A stretch of DNA of 41,237 nt. Source: a virus. This document shows positions 5,150-24,975 of this stretch, piece by piece. The stretch covers positions 12,601-53,837 of IMG/VR virus record IMGVR_UViG_3300000553_000052, one strand, 5' to 3'. Numbering within the stretch: position 1 is the stretch's first letter; each line of letters begins with the position of its first letter. A model generated the notes under the pieces. The model had not been told where the DNA came from, ran no database searches, and saw only the letters and a program-made list of their open reading frames with translations. A program made the position numbers and the translations under genes.

Positions 5150-5618
5150 CGTTCTCTGTGCCATATAATAAATTTTCTAACGTCTTGTAGTGCTCATATG
5201 CTTGCTGTAATGCTTCATACTTAGCAAGTAGCTCTGCTTTAGGTTCGAGTATGCTAAGACGTTGCTCTACTTTCTGCATCCACGTAACCATACTTTTCCC
5301 ACCAATCACAATGTCTGGTTCAAACCCTTCTAACGTTAGTTGCCCAGACATTGATACTTTTGCCGCAGTCGAATTTACCCATGCTGTATTTGCCATACTT
5401 AAACCGCCGCCACCTGCGCCAATGCCGGATACAGTAATATTTGATGGTATTGCACCAGAGCCAAACGTATTAGTACCACTTGCGCCAATGCCGGATACAG
5501 TAATATTTGATGGTATTGCACCAGAGCCAAACGTATTAGTACCACTTGCACCAGCGCCACCAACTAATACCTGCCCACTAGATCCAGCGCCGTTAAGCGT
5601 AACATTATTAGTCGCCAC
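5136..5618 (-). CDS. 160-residue Gly-rich structural-type protein with perfect tandem repeat
   Basis: The start is GTG (5618), behind AAGGA; the frame is open further upstream but without a ribosome site. The N-terminal part is a Gly/Ser/Asn fibre-like sequence containing two identical 22-residue repeats (core TNTFGSGAIPSNITVSG). The C-terminal part is a compact domain (GFEPDIVIGGKSMVTWMQKV, then EQRLSILEPKAEL and a long helix). The domain pattern of a DIxIxGKSL-like strand followed by EQRLxIL and a helical tail recurs in T4-like phages, often on virion-associated proteins. A minor structural role is my inference. Confidence 0.7.
   Translation of the reverse strand: MATNNVTLNGAGSSGQVLVGGAGASGTNTFGSGAIPSNITVSGIGASGTNTFGSGAIPSNITVSGIGAGGGGLSMANTAWVNSTAAKVSMSGQLTLEGFEPDIVIGGKSMVTWMQKVEQRLSILEPKAELLAKYEALQQAYEHYKTLENLLYGTENDVQD
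5415..5546. repeat. Perfect 2 x 66-bp tandem repeat
   Basis: Positions 5415-5480 and 5481-5546 are identical base for base; a degenerate third copy begins at 5547. The unit is a multiple of three, so copy number changes keep the frame. Confidence 0.95.
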
Positions 5619-16747: not shown

Positions 16748-18638
<1,891 letters not shown>

Positions 18639-20369: not shown

Positions 20370-20771
20370 TTAGGCGGATATCACATATTTGTTACTTTTA
20401 CTTAAATTTACTTCAGCTATAAGATATTGCATATTCTCTACTATATGTAGTCCGCTTACTATTTTACCACGCAACGGAATTATATGATCAACATGATATC
20501 CTGCAGGGCAGCTTAGATAAAACTCTTTAACCGCTTCTTTATCTGCCCACGGTGGGATTCTCTGTAATCTTGCGGCTCGTTCGTTGGCACTTTTTAATCG
20601 TGTCTTATGCTTATTTGCTTGACGCCAACGCTTATGTGCGTCTGCTGAATATTTCTTATCCGATTTATATTTCTTTTCCTTATTACCAGGTTTTGCTATC
20701 CATCGGTTATAAGCAGCTCGTAATCGTAGTCTGCGTTCTTCTTCTGTTTCTATTAGTTTTGGTCTTCCCAT
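20370..20771 (-). CDS. HNH homing endonuclease next to the tmRNA gene
   Basis: 133 residues. The N-terminal two thirds are very basic helices (RRLRLRAAYNRWIAKPGNKE ... KHKTRLKSANERAARLQR); the C-terminal HNH core is HVDHIIPLRGKIVSGLHIVE, then NMQYLIAEVNLSKSNKY. It is the VDHxxPLxG...GLHxxxNxQ...NxxKxNK subfamily. The late promoter (20777-20784) ends about 5 nt before the ATG, so the message is almost leaderless. Flanked by terminators, it is inserted immediately after the tmRNA. Confidence 0.88.
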   Translation of the reverse strand: MGRPKLIETEEERRLRLRAAYNRWIAKPGNKEKKYKSDKKYSADAHKRWRQANKHKTRLKSANERAARLQRIPPWADKEAVKEFYLSCPAGYHVDHIIPLRGKIVSGLHIVENMQYLIAEVNLSKSNKYVISA

Positions 20772-20784: not shown

Positions 20785-20796
20785 TGCGTTGTCGTA

Positions 20797-20820
20797 AAAA
20801 AGCCCCTTGCGGGGCTTTTT
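20797..20820 (-). terminator. Intrinsic terminator of the tmRNA gene
   Basis: AAAAAGCCCC, loop GCAA on the minus strand, GGGGCTTTTT: a symmetric, bidirectional terminator directly after the tmRNA tail. Confidence 0.92.
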
Positions 20821-20864
20821 GGTTGTTTCTGTTGCCAGGTAAGTCCTACCCCGGTTGTTTTAGA

Positions 20865-20957
20865 CTAAGCTAAAACAGCAGCATCAGTACGTGAACCGAA
20901 GCGGAAGCCACGACCCATAGATACTTTTACTGCACCAGTTGTATTTGCTTTTTCTGC
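20865..20957 (-). other. tmRNA tag reading frame (proposed)
   Basis: Open frame in the mRNA-like part, with proposed resume codon GCA (20957-20955) preceded by UAAAU, the position of UAGUC in E. coli tmRNA. The tag would be 30 residues, starting AEKANTTGAVKV, with a basic aromatic middle (GRGFRFGSR) and ending TDAAVLA before TAG. GCA codons nearby in the same frame are alternative resume points. It is longer than usual tags; the hydrophobic end resembles ClpXP-directed tags. Confidence 0.6.
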
Positions 20958-21036
20958 ATTTACGGTTTTTGCATTTAACGTGACCCCACGTGTTGCCCTT
21001 TATCCTATCTATCGCAATCGAATCTAAGTCATCCCC

Positions 21037-21094
21037 ATCAAAGATATACTACCGAACTTATGGCGTTTCTTGCCAATATTGCTTAATATATCTT
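21037..21094 (-). other. Internal transcribed segment of the permuted tmRNA
   Basis: 58 nt between the CCA end of the acceptor piece and the GGGG start of the coding piece. Its ends, with the last bases of CCACCA, form a perfect 10-bp stem (CAAAGATATA with TATATCTTTG) stacked on the acceptor stem, as expected for a pre-tmRNA loop removed by processing. Confidence 0.75.
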
Positions 21095-21163
21095 TGGTGG
21101 AGATGGCGGGTTCTGCCCCCGCGTCTTGCAATCCTTACTTTGAGAGTTATACAACAATTTCTT

Positions 21164-21295
21164 TTACTGAATTACTTCAGTGTGTTTGTGTTTCAAACTT
21201 AGCTTTAATGCTTTAAGCCATAGTTTCTTTTGTTTCTTTGTATTCTTACGCACACATGCTAGATACATTTTTCTTATTAATTTCTTTCTTTTCAT
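21164..21295 (-). CDS. 43-residue very basic protein
   Basis: It starts MKRKKLIRKMYLACVRKNTK and continues with KKQKKLWLKALKLSLKHKH. Behind AAGGAAGTAAA, 9 nt after the upstream stop. About a third of residues are Lys/Arg; helical. It lies just upstream of the tmRNA acceptor piece and its message may run into it. Possibly RNA-binding; no family recognised. Confidence 0.6.
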   Translation of the reverse strand: MKRKKLIRKMYLACVRKNTKKQKKLWLKALKLSLKHKHTEVIQ

Positions 21296-21304
21296 TTTAC
21301 TTCC

Positions 21305-21727
21305 TTATGGCTTAACTACAATTGGTGGCAATGTCAGTTCAAATGTGCCATTACTTAAATAACGTTTCTTCTCTTTATTAAAGTTTGTTTGAAAGAATGA
21401 TGCCTTACCGCCCTCTTTCCACCAAGTATTAACTATAACAATAACACGTATTGTTGGTGCTTCCGGTGCGCCTTCTGACTTTGAAAATAACTTAGTTGGC
21501 ACATTCGATACATCTGGCAGAGTCCAGCAACCTTCGTGTGCTACTACATCTGAACTTTCTGTAGCATAAGTTCTGTACTCATATTCTTTTGCCACTTGTT
21601 CAAATGCACAGGGCTCTGTAGTTAATACAACAAAGCCACCAGCATCATTTGGCATGTACATTTCTTTTGGTACTTCTTCTGCGCTAACTGATAGCGATAC
21701 GAGCAATGCTACTAAAGCAAGTTTCAT
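21305..21727 (-). CDS. 140-residue secreted hypothetical protein
   Basis: A signal peptide at residues 1-16 (MKLALVALLVSLSVSA, cleavage before EEVPKE). The mature part has two cysteines (TEPCAFEQ and HEGCWTLP) that may form a disulfide, and a beta-rich C-terminus ending TFELTLPPIVVKP. Expected in the periplasm. Behind GGGGAGT. The family is not recognised. Confidence 0.75.
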   Translation of the reverse strand: MKLALVALLVSLSVSAEEVPKEMYMPNDAGGFVVLTTEPCAFEQVAKEYEYRTYATESSDVVAHEGCWTLPDVSNVPTKLFSKSEGAPEAPTIRVIVIVNTWWKEGGKASFFQTNFNKEKKRYLSNGTFELTLPPIVVKP

Positions 21728-23309: not shown

Positions 23310-23693
23310 TTAAGCAATCCAACCTTGTCCAGTAATTTCATGATACCACGGATAAAAACTCGGAATGGTTAATACCCAAGTATCATTGGTATCTATGTAA
23401 TCAGTCGGCGGTTGCGCATAATGTTGATATAATGGAATGATAGGAAATCCGTCTACAGTAATGTCGACTATTACTGCATCGGGATGTTGACGGGTTACAT
23501 TTATTGATATATTTAATGGATCGATTAATGAATGACTGTGCTGTAATACCGTTAGTTCAGTTAACTTGTTGTTATAAATTACTCCATCATTGATTAATAC
23601 AATGCATGGACACTGACCGACAGGAGTTAATGTAATTACTACATCTAATCTTAGGGTTGGTTTAATAACCGTACTGTCGTAAAAATTCTTCAT
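23310..23693 (-). CDS. 127-residue protein encoded after the radical SAM gene
   Basis: It starts MKNFYDSTVIKPTLRLDVVI, overlapping the radical SAM 3' end by 32 bp. Beta-rich, with GQCPCIVLINDGVIY and a Trp/Tyr-rich end (DTNDTWVLTIPSFYPWYHEI, then TGQGWIA). It could be the substrate or partner of the radical SAM enzyme, from position alone. No family recognised. Confidence 0.7.
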   Translation of the reverse strand: MKNFYDSTVIKPTLRLDVVITLTPVGQCPCIVLINDGVIYNNKLTELTVLQHSHSLIDPLNISINVTRQHPDAVIVDITVDGFPIIPLYQHYAQPPTDYIDTNDTWVLTIPSFYPWYHEITGQGWIA

Positions 23694-24975
23694 ATTCTGG
23701 GAGATAATCCAATATTGTATTATTGCGCAATGATTCGAATGCTTTAATAAATTTAACTAAATTGTGGCGTTCTTCGTCCACATCATTGGGTACTTGGTAA
23801 TTCTCAAGGAAATGTTTATATTCAAAAAGTATGCTTGTAATAACTGGGTCAATCAAATCATCTCGCCTGCGATTAATAATAACCTGATTACTATTGGTTA
23901 ATTGATATTTATTTATAACTGCATTAAGTTTTTCAAGTGCAATAGCAATTAAATTTGGTGGCAATAGTTCAATTCGTAACCAACTCGGTTCGTATAATAT
24001 ATCACAACTTTCTGCAATAATAGAATTATTAATCATAAATTCAAATAATGTATCTAAATGATAAATGCTGAAGATAGTCGGCGTTATACGCAAACTTAAA
24101 TGTAAATTAGTTTGCTTTCTAAGATCCAAAAATTTCTGAATGTTCGATGATACTGAATCAATCGTACTCGGATAACGAATATAATCATTAACTTCATGTA
24201 GAGATTCAATACTAAGTCCCAAATGAACATGCTTAAAATTCTTAATAATGTTTTCTAATTCTTCTGAATACACAGTACAATTAGTTGTTGTTCCGATATT
24301 AATATCCTTCGCAACTCCTGCTTCTATTAATCTTTCACAAATATCATAAAAACTTTTTAAGTAAAGTGTTTCACCACCCAAGAAATGTATGTATTTAATG
24401 TTAGGAATAGTAATTAATTCTGCTACAAACTTATCCATTAATATTGGATCATCTGCCCAATTCTTAAATTTAGAAAAGGATTTAAATAATGTCGGTTCTA
24501 GTTTGTTAAGTTTAACATAGTCGTTAGATAATTTACTGCTATAAGTCGGAGTACACATAATACAACCACTATTACAAGTATTGCCGAGATCAATTTGTAA
24601 ATCAATTGGCAAACTATTAGTATGACCATTATTAGTGGCACTATATTCAAATATTTCATAATGTGGGCTTGCACAAAATGTCTTATCAAAATTTGTAATA
24701 CTAATTACGCTCTTTAAGAGTTGGCGTTGACGTCCACTTACTTTATTGTTCGAATCTTCATAATGACAACTACTGCACATACGTAATTTGTCACCATCTA
24801 ATAGAGAGGCTCTAATTCCTTGCATGATATCAGAATTCATAAATTCTGCGATAGATGTTGTTGCAATATTATAACCAGTATCGTCATGCGACCCCCATCG
24901 GCAAGGTAAAAATTTACCCGATGGCCCTATCCTAATATGAAACCATGGACTTGAGCAAAATGTATCTTTAAGCAT
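23662..24975 (-). CDS. Twitch-domain radical SAM protein
   Basis: 437 residues. The radical SAM cluster motif CNSGCIMC gives Cys134, 138 and 141 (CxxxCxxC). N-terminal cysteines in CSSPWFHIRIGPSGKFLPCR (7, 25) and MCSSCHYED (67, 70) form a twitch/SPASM-like site for an auxiliary cluster. GGETLY at about 199 is the SAM-binding GGE motif. It would reduce SAM to a 5'-deoxyadenosyl radical and modify a peptide or sugar. The start shares TAATG with clpP. Similar proteins occur in T4-like aquatic phages with unknown substrates. Confidence 0.88.
   Translation of the reverse strand: MLKDTFCSSPWFHIRIGPSGKFLPCRWGSHDDTGYNIATTSIAEFMNSDIMQGIRASLLDGDKLRMCSSCHYEDSNNKVSGRQRQLLKSVISITNFDKTFCASPHYEIFEYSATNNGHTNSLPIDLQIDLGNTCNSGCIMCTPTYSSKLSNDYVKLNKLEPTLFKSFSKFKNWADDPILMDKFVAELITIPNIKYIHFLGGETLYLKSFYDICERLIEAGVAKDINIGTTTNCTVYSEELENIIKNFKHVHLGLSIESLHEVNDYIRYPSTIDSVSSNIQKFLDLRKQTNLHLSLRITPTIFSIYHLDTLFEFMINNSIIAESCDILYEPSWLRIELLPPNLIAIALEKLNAVINKYQLTNSNQVIINRRRDDLIDPVITSILFEYKHFLENYQVPNDVDEERHNLVKFIKAFESLRNNTILDYLPEYEEFLRQYGY

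Follow-up and report, generated by a model that had tools for sequence, protein, structure and literature searches.

We found that the minus strand of the viral DNA analyzed here (the window, which is 41,237 bases long and comes from a virus record of 53,837 bases) almost certainly carries a circularly permuted tmRNA gene, at 21156-20818, and that its tag frame encodes a peptide of 30 residues, AEKANTTGAVKVSMGRGFRFGSRTDAAVLA, with a conserved core. This tag sets the window apart from the tmRNA family RF04321, since the commonest tag length is 10 residues according to the available text of a database report (PMC11915505). The boldest reading, to which we assign a probability of roughly 0.35, is that tmRNA serves large aquatic phages as a private tagging system, in which a virus-specific peptide, existing in several versions, stands ahead of the degron and is handled by a dedicated phage reader, most simply ClpA with ClpP, independently of host SsrA adaptors. 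The 30-residue tag is the unusual part of the gene and was absent from an earlier note on this DNA. Its length and conservation may be what a specialist would not expect; no description of a conserved long phage tmRNA tag was found in the titles and abstract openings of the papers listed by our literature searches.

The identity of the RNA is supported by two covariance models, both above their cut-offs. RF04321, a permuted model, covers minus strand 21156-20925 from end to end (91.6 bits, cut-off 47; E = 1.5e-16), and the alpha_tmRNA model RF01849 covers 21200-20818 (71.4 bits, cut-off 50; E = 1.2e-17), which bears out the circularly permuted, two-piece gene order that the earlier note had proposed and had suggested checking in this way. 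Reading the gene base by base along the minus strand, we found first an acceptor piece, then a spacer of 58 nt and last a coding piece. The 3' strand of the acceptor, CATCTCC (21105-21099), is followed by A73 (21098) and CCA (21097-21095) and forms seven pairs, including G3:U70, with GGGGATG (21036-21030) at the start of the coding piece. The T stem has five of five pairs, and P2 joins TTGCGAT (21017-21011) to ATTGCAA (21132-21126) by seven of seven, one of them G-U. These acceptor and P2 features had been described correctly before, as had a spacer that closes on itself; its outer helix has 11 pairs, and its fold (-13.7 kcal/mol, z -3.56) was equalled in stability by none of 200 shuffles. The terminator that had also been claimed can be read by eye on the minus strand, whereas a terminator scan places the same palindrome (20797-20820) on the plus strand only. 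That scan returned four terminator-like sites against 1.9 in shuffles, and a promoter scan of the window gave no excess over shuffles. Taken by itself, the geometry of an ACCA end with a full acceptor, T stem and P2 has one occurrence in the window and also turns up in 2 of 60 dinucleotide shuffles, so it is the covariance models, with the E-values given above, and not the geometry, that led us to reject a chance origin. Table 1 lists the features.

Table 1. Coordinates of the tmRNA and of neighboring features in the window.
Feature	Position	Strand	Basis
groEL	16748..18358	-	TIGR02348, 783.8 bits (cut-off 582.1)
groES	18345..18638	-	PF00166, E 2.9e-31
133-aa ORF, endonuclease VII-like, downstream of terminator	20370..20771	-	phrog_1035, E 2.3e-10
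Intrinsic terminator, GCCCC-GCAA-GGGGC-TTTTTT	20796..20815	-	Read by eye
Coding piece, starts GGGGATG	20818..21036	-	End of RF01849 match, 20818
Tag frame from resume codon GCA (20957-20955) to stop TAG (20867-20865); 30 aa, AEKANTTGAVKVSMGRGFRFGSRTDAAVLA	20865..20957	-	ARAGORN calls the homologous frame in 20/25 relatives
Intervening segment, 58 nt, self-complementary ends, removal expected	21037..21094	-	Fold z -3.56; place in RF04321 alignment
Acceptor piece (first gene segment), ends A73-CCA	21095..21156	-	RF04321 start, 21156; base reading of the CCA down to 21095
T arm, stem GCGGG/CCCGC, loop GGCAGAA	21106..21122	-	Base reading; RF04321 alignment
43-aa ORF	21164..21295	-	Read; ends 7 nt before RF04321 match, overlaps longer RF01849 match
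140-aa ORF, conserved neighbor upstream of tmRNA	21305..21727	-	20 relatives in viral contigs; no Pfam match
clpP, 206 aa	24975..25595	-	PF00574, E 1.4e-65

The window's tmRNA is like RF04321, RF01849 and RF01850 in its gene order, G3:U70 acceptor, T arm, P2, CCA, intervening segment and the resume context UAAAUGCA, which Rfam aligns at the tag start; its T loop, GGCAGAA, differs from the RF04321 consensus, UUCGAUU. Perhaps because of this loop, which is our guess, ARAGORN called no tmRNA in the window. The program, which the earlier note had suggested as a second check, also failed on L055, L084 and L180, three copies identical to the window's tmRNA, and on L163 and L177, and it called a tmRNA in the other 20 of 25 loci that share the window's tag core, marked with an asterisk, its sign for permuted genes. 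RF01849 is passed by L149 (63.1 bits) as well as by the window, and the beta model RF01850 (cut-off 84) by the core-bearing loci L127 (84.3), L129 (97.7) and L131 (98). Of 181 sequences, 161 (55 distinct) allowed parsing of the tRNA-like domain; among the distinct ones, acceptor pair 4 is G-C in 46 and C-G in 9, and pair 5 is G-C in 32, C-G in 11, A-U in 8 and U-A in 4. Parsing required six of seven acceptor pairs, G3:U70 and four of five T-stem pairs, so these features do not count as independent evidence. Under a fixed definition, P2 has only five of seven pairs in two of eight distinct core-bearing domains and three to five in many other viral ones.

The permuted layout is not new in phages. 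The earlier note had it that no permuted tmRNA was known in this phage group; such genes are already in print, so that claim was wrong, and we rejected novelty of the layout. The available text of a 2022 study of marine T4-like phages (PMC9004378) describes a two-piece tmRNA in the OM43 (Methylophilales) myophage Melnitz, permuted tmRNAs in 17 of the 47 contigs that cluster with this phage and, by ARAGORN, a two-piece form for 53 of 133 unique phage tmRNA structures, the samples behind 50 of the 53 being marine or aquatic. The window and these phages are alike in that the permuted tmRNA belongs to a T4-like myophage whose host is an aquatic bacterium, and they differ in the conserved long tag, of which that available text makes no mention. 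The 2025 tmRNA database holds 79 bacteriophage sequences, according to the part of its report cited here (PMC11915505). Our own permuted-layout pattern matched at least 119 viral stretches, and ARAGORN called a tmRNA in 105 of 119 among the matches listed; 20 of those 105 calls have tags of at least 20 residues, in other families such as ANAFKPEVTVPVSIFADAELVAA. Loci L026, L033, L051 and L083, which we guess to be pelagimyophage-like contigs, have a 13-residue tag, ANDNYSPEMALAA. Two further observations concern single loci: L094 and L121 carry a tag, ATASTKGSFKFSGKGVKLASAAREAVMA, laid out like the window's with a different core, and near the phage tmRNA of L112 ARAGORN places, at 5325-5399, a tRNA with a CTA anticodon, labelled Pyl, that would read TAG stop codons.

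The window probably belongs to a large phage. A 329,321-base contig, IMGVR_UViG_3300021137_000001, has neighbor proteins 100% identical to those of the window and an identical tmRNA region, and it encodes the Gp23 capsid protein, found in 2 of 18 records searched; the window phage is therefore taken to be a jumbo phage of the T4-like kind that had been proposed. Besides clpP, groES and groEL, the window encodes DNA ligase, tail fibre and endonuclease VII-like genes; the best match of the 133-aa ORF is phrog_26577, of unknown function, and it has no Pfam match. The groES and groEL genes adjoin each other (16748-18638) and share a strand with clpP and with the tmRNA, which lies 2 kb upstream of them, and a radical SAM protein with a SPASM domain is encoded beside clpP (23662-24975). 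Matches to GroEL in 235 records gave no pointer to the host, and a nucleotide search of the phage collection returned two short Erythrobacter phage matches only. Two neighboring proteins of the tmRNA recruited 20 and 16 loci. When Rfam was run on 30 of these 36 loci together with L055, a permuted tmRNA was found in 9 of the 31 sources and none above threshold in 22. The neighbors led to six distinct tmRNAs (the window type, L125, L127, L129, L131 and L149), and the core is present in four of the five besides the window type. In L125 (3707-4003), the same conserved neighbor gene accompanies a different permuted tmRNA with an ordinary tag, ANDELFALAA, as if the tmRNA gene had been replaced or exchanged.

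The tag core recurs in other viral sequences. A degenerate pattern, KVSMGR[G/D]FRF, matched 25 viral stretches and lay in the tmRNA tag frame in all 25, as KVSMGRGFRF in 24 and KVSMGRDFRF in one; it is followed by alanine (FRFA) in 12 and by glycine (FRFG) in 13. Together with the window these make up only 16 distinct regions, so many core-bearing stretches are near-copies; the records are fragments of unknown completeness, several nearly identical. The same pattern had no match in genome_contigs, a collection of bacteria and archaea covering 84,980 species. The window's own tag would have 35 residues if an upstream in-frame GCA is the resume codon. Upstream of the tag, 23 of the 25 core-bearing loci have a CCACCA end; the acceptor piece of L158 and L178 reads CTCCACTGA, with the CCA seemingly not encoded. 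In L161, L166 and L177, the tmRNA spacer is longer than in the window and, by eye, seems to hold an ORF.

Tags were also collected through the conserved non-coding stretch just before them, a pattern that is blind to the tag, not to lineage. It matched 52 viral stretches with 50 complete tags, the other two running off the contig, and 48 of the 50 have at least 20 residues (the two shorter ones have 10 and 13). This set holds at least two clear core families: family A, with the window's core, at 14 loci, and family B, ADT[F/Y]DF[S/T]AMSFTGN, at 25, beside a looser rest of nine tags (NTFEYFQVPV and similar). In family B the module is kept while the tail varies among ANDSRFALAA, ANESRFALAA and SGKSKVALAA. 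A degenerate form of the first of these matched seven genome contigs, two exactly (Paralcaligenes and Jezberella), four as ANDTRFALAA and one as ANDSSFALAA, with titles naming what we take to be betaproteobacteria. ARAGORN calls a one-piece bacterial tmRNA in all seven, so that the bacteria with the matching tail do not have the permuted form. This tail thus looks like a tag of betaproteobacteria, and freshwater members of that group may be the hosts. In the tag-blind set, 16 of 27 distinct tags finish with ALAA, and several tags of the core family still have an ALAA or AVAA end that could be recognized by host ClpXP; departures from LAA are AVLA in the window and AVLV in L149 and L163.

Comparison of the tag sequences indicates that the cores are under purifying selection at the amino acid level and that family A tails are less so. 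In the tag-blind set, pN/pS is 0.10 for core A (four distinct sequences) and 0.16 for the family B module (nine distinct), against 0.62 and 0.79 for family A tails of equal length (four and three distinct, respectively); these and the following estimates come from few sequences. When core-selected sequences are added, core A gives 0.14 (eight distinct), a value that the search itself biases downward. Read in frames +1 and +2, the same DNA gives 10 and 18 for core A, with core-selected sequences added, and 4.7 and 1.9 for module B. Because pN/pS is low in the tag frame only, the feature preserved is the peptide, and its core most of all. RNA-level conservation alone was rejected as the cause of the core for the same reason, and because the changes fall mostly at third codon positions.

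These values bear on the possibility that the gene is an ordinary auxiliary tmRNA, which would rescue ribosomes during infection and add a long tag to be degraded, as other SsrA tags are, by host ClpXP or ClpAP, with the core as a linker that has no reader. The ALAA ends of most distinct tags are consistent with this explanation, as are the family B tails that equal a tag found in one-piece bacterial tmRNAs. In a family of plain degrons, however, we would expect the end to be best kept, and the strongest constraint in the tag would not be looked for in a linker, yet it falls on core and module here (0.10-0.16, against 0.62-0.79 for family A tails); the AVLA and AVLV ends, too, depart from LAA. 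We consider an auxiliary tmRNA of this kind a serious candidate that is nonetheless unlikely.

Several different cores hold the same place in different phages, and family A tails drift, which could also point to a sorting or binding signal unrelated to proteolysis, one that docks tagged proteins on a phage or ribosomal component, for example, or spares them from host ClpXP. The many tags that keep a degron-like end argue against such a signal, as do our searches with the tag, which had no match in PDB, Pfam or PHROG, returned nothing by tblastn against the phage collection and, in seven phage records, found the tmRNA itself in five and nothing in two, with no second copy. A purely non-proteolytic role seems rather improbable to us. 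The same searches led us to reject the idea that the core is a borrowed piece of a known protein.

If the tag is instead part of a private tagging system, a phage-encoded reader would be expected, and Clp genes are common in core-bearing phages. The clpP gene of the window, already recognized in the earlier note, has counterparts in the core-bearing records: ClpP was found in 24 of 25 (in one as a piece at the contig edge), and the miss is a 9.5-kb fragment. Wherever both could be placed (five records of five), clpP and the tag share a strand, with clpP 2.4-4.7 kb upstream; the distance in the window is 4.0 kb. The Ser, His and Asp of the window ClpP triad align with those of a solved ClpP, and the protein passes the subfamily model NF001368 (255.5 against 249) and scores below the equivalog TIGR00493 (242.3 bits, cut-off 308.6), which makes it a divergent ClpP. 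In ClpP of the window type, 10 aa are inserted after the His region, and the sequence following the catalytic His is MIHRVSSGT, compared with MIHQPSGG. Among 10 ClpPs compared, this insertion is missing in the L219, tag B, tag C and G016 phages, and the core-bearing record G028 has a different ClpP that also lacks it.

ClpA-like proteins of about 770 aa are present in 8 of 25 core-bearing records, including all seven over 105 kb, and absent from three of 94.7-104 kb. The two that were scored, which come from relatives and not from the window, reach 828 and 822.7 bits, under the cut-off of 993 for the bacterial ClpA equivalog, and are called ClpA-like for that reason. One aligns with E. coli ClpA over nearly its whole length, and all eight carry IGF in place of the IGL of E. 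coli ClpA, in the loop through which ClpA binds ClpP. In a second set of 38 records with long and short tags, ClpP was found in 10 (five at full strength and five weak, with an internal stop) and an AAA_2 match in four, two of them of ClpA size. A strict link between long tags and ClpA was rejected, as it fails both ways: G048 (265 kb, 27-residue tag) has ClpP without a ClpA-like protein, and G016, with a 13-residue tag, has ClpP and ClpA. The association of Clp genes with tag length is thus not strict, nor is it corrected for descent.

SmpB was found in none of three overlapping record sets (0 of 1, 0 of 26 and 0 of the 25 core-bearing records) and SspB in none of 18 records searched, all of which may be fragments; on this basis, a phage SmpB or SspB partner was rejected. 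Phages of more than 200 kb with tmRNA are known from PMC7162821, and the core-bearing records differ from them in that SmpB is mentioned among huge-phage genes in the available text of that study. The lack of SmpB in the core-bearing records would suit a decoy RNA that titrates SmpB or blocks the host tmRNA, and the tag-less tmRNA of phage DS6A offers a precedent in the available text of PMC11915505 and PMC4131195. A tag frame would be superfluous in a decoy, whereas the one here is open and under selection, and we regard this explanation as very unlikely. A functionless remnant captured through integration or excision can practically be set aside: phages can integrate at ssrA genes and pieces of ssrA are present in prophages, according to the available text of PMC9004378, yet the stems are intact, with compensatory changes, a conserved neighbor and a tag under selection.

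We give about even odds to the whole mechanism in which a functional two-piece phage tmRNA uses its core as a second recognition element, with phage ClpAP as the likeliest reader. By analogy with known members of the family, cleavage on either side of the 58-nt spacer would leave two pieces held together by the acceptor stem and P2, alanyl-tRNA synthetase would charge the acceptor by way of G3:U70, and host SmpB would bring the charged tmRNA to stalled ribosomes. The core, placed before a host-like degron that drifts, may then act as a second recognition element through which tagged proteins would reach a phage-specific reader, most probably the phage ClpP with the ClpA-like unfoldase found in larger relatives. 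Co-occurrence and synteny are the whole of what points to phage ClpAP as this reader. Counting against the mechanism are the loose association of ClpA with tag length, the presence of full-strength ClpP matches in no more than five of the 38 records of the second set, the different ClpP of G028, the reduced P2 pairing in some domains, the 22 neighbor-recruited sources with no permuted tmRNA above threshold, and the ALAA or AVAA ends of several core-family tags. The proposed system is like the bacterial SsrA tag with ClpAP and ClpXP in its degron-like tag ends, with a phage ClpP and, in larger relatives, a ClpA-like protein; it differs in that some 15-20 additional residues precede the degron.

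That the core is better conserved than the end of the tag indicates that the peptide itself matters to the phage, and who reads this peptide can be tested. If phage ClpAP reads the tag, the virus would supply both the writer and the eraser of its protein tags, and orthogonal degrons would be available, ready for use, in the cores. At a minimum, our results suggest that studies of phage tmRNAs should look at the tags as well as at gene layout.
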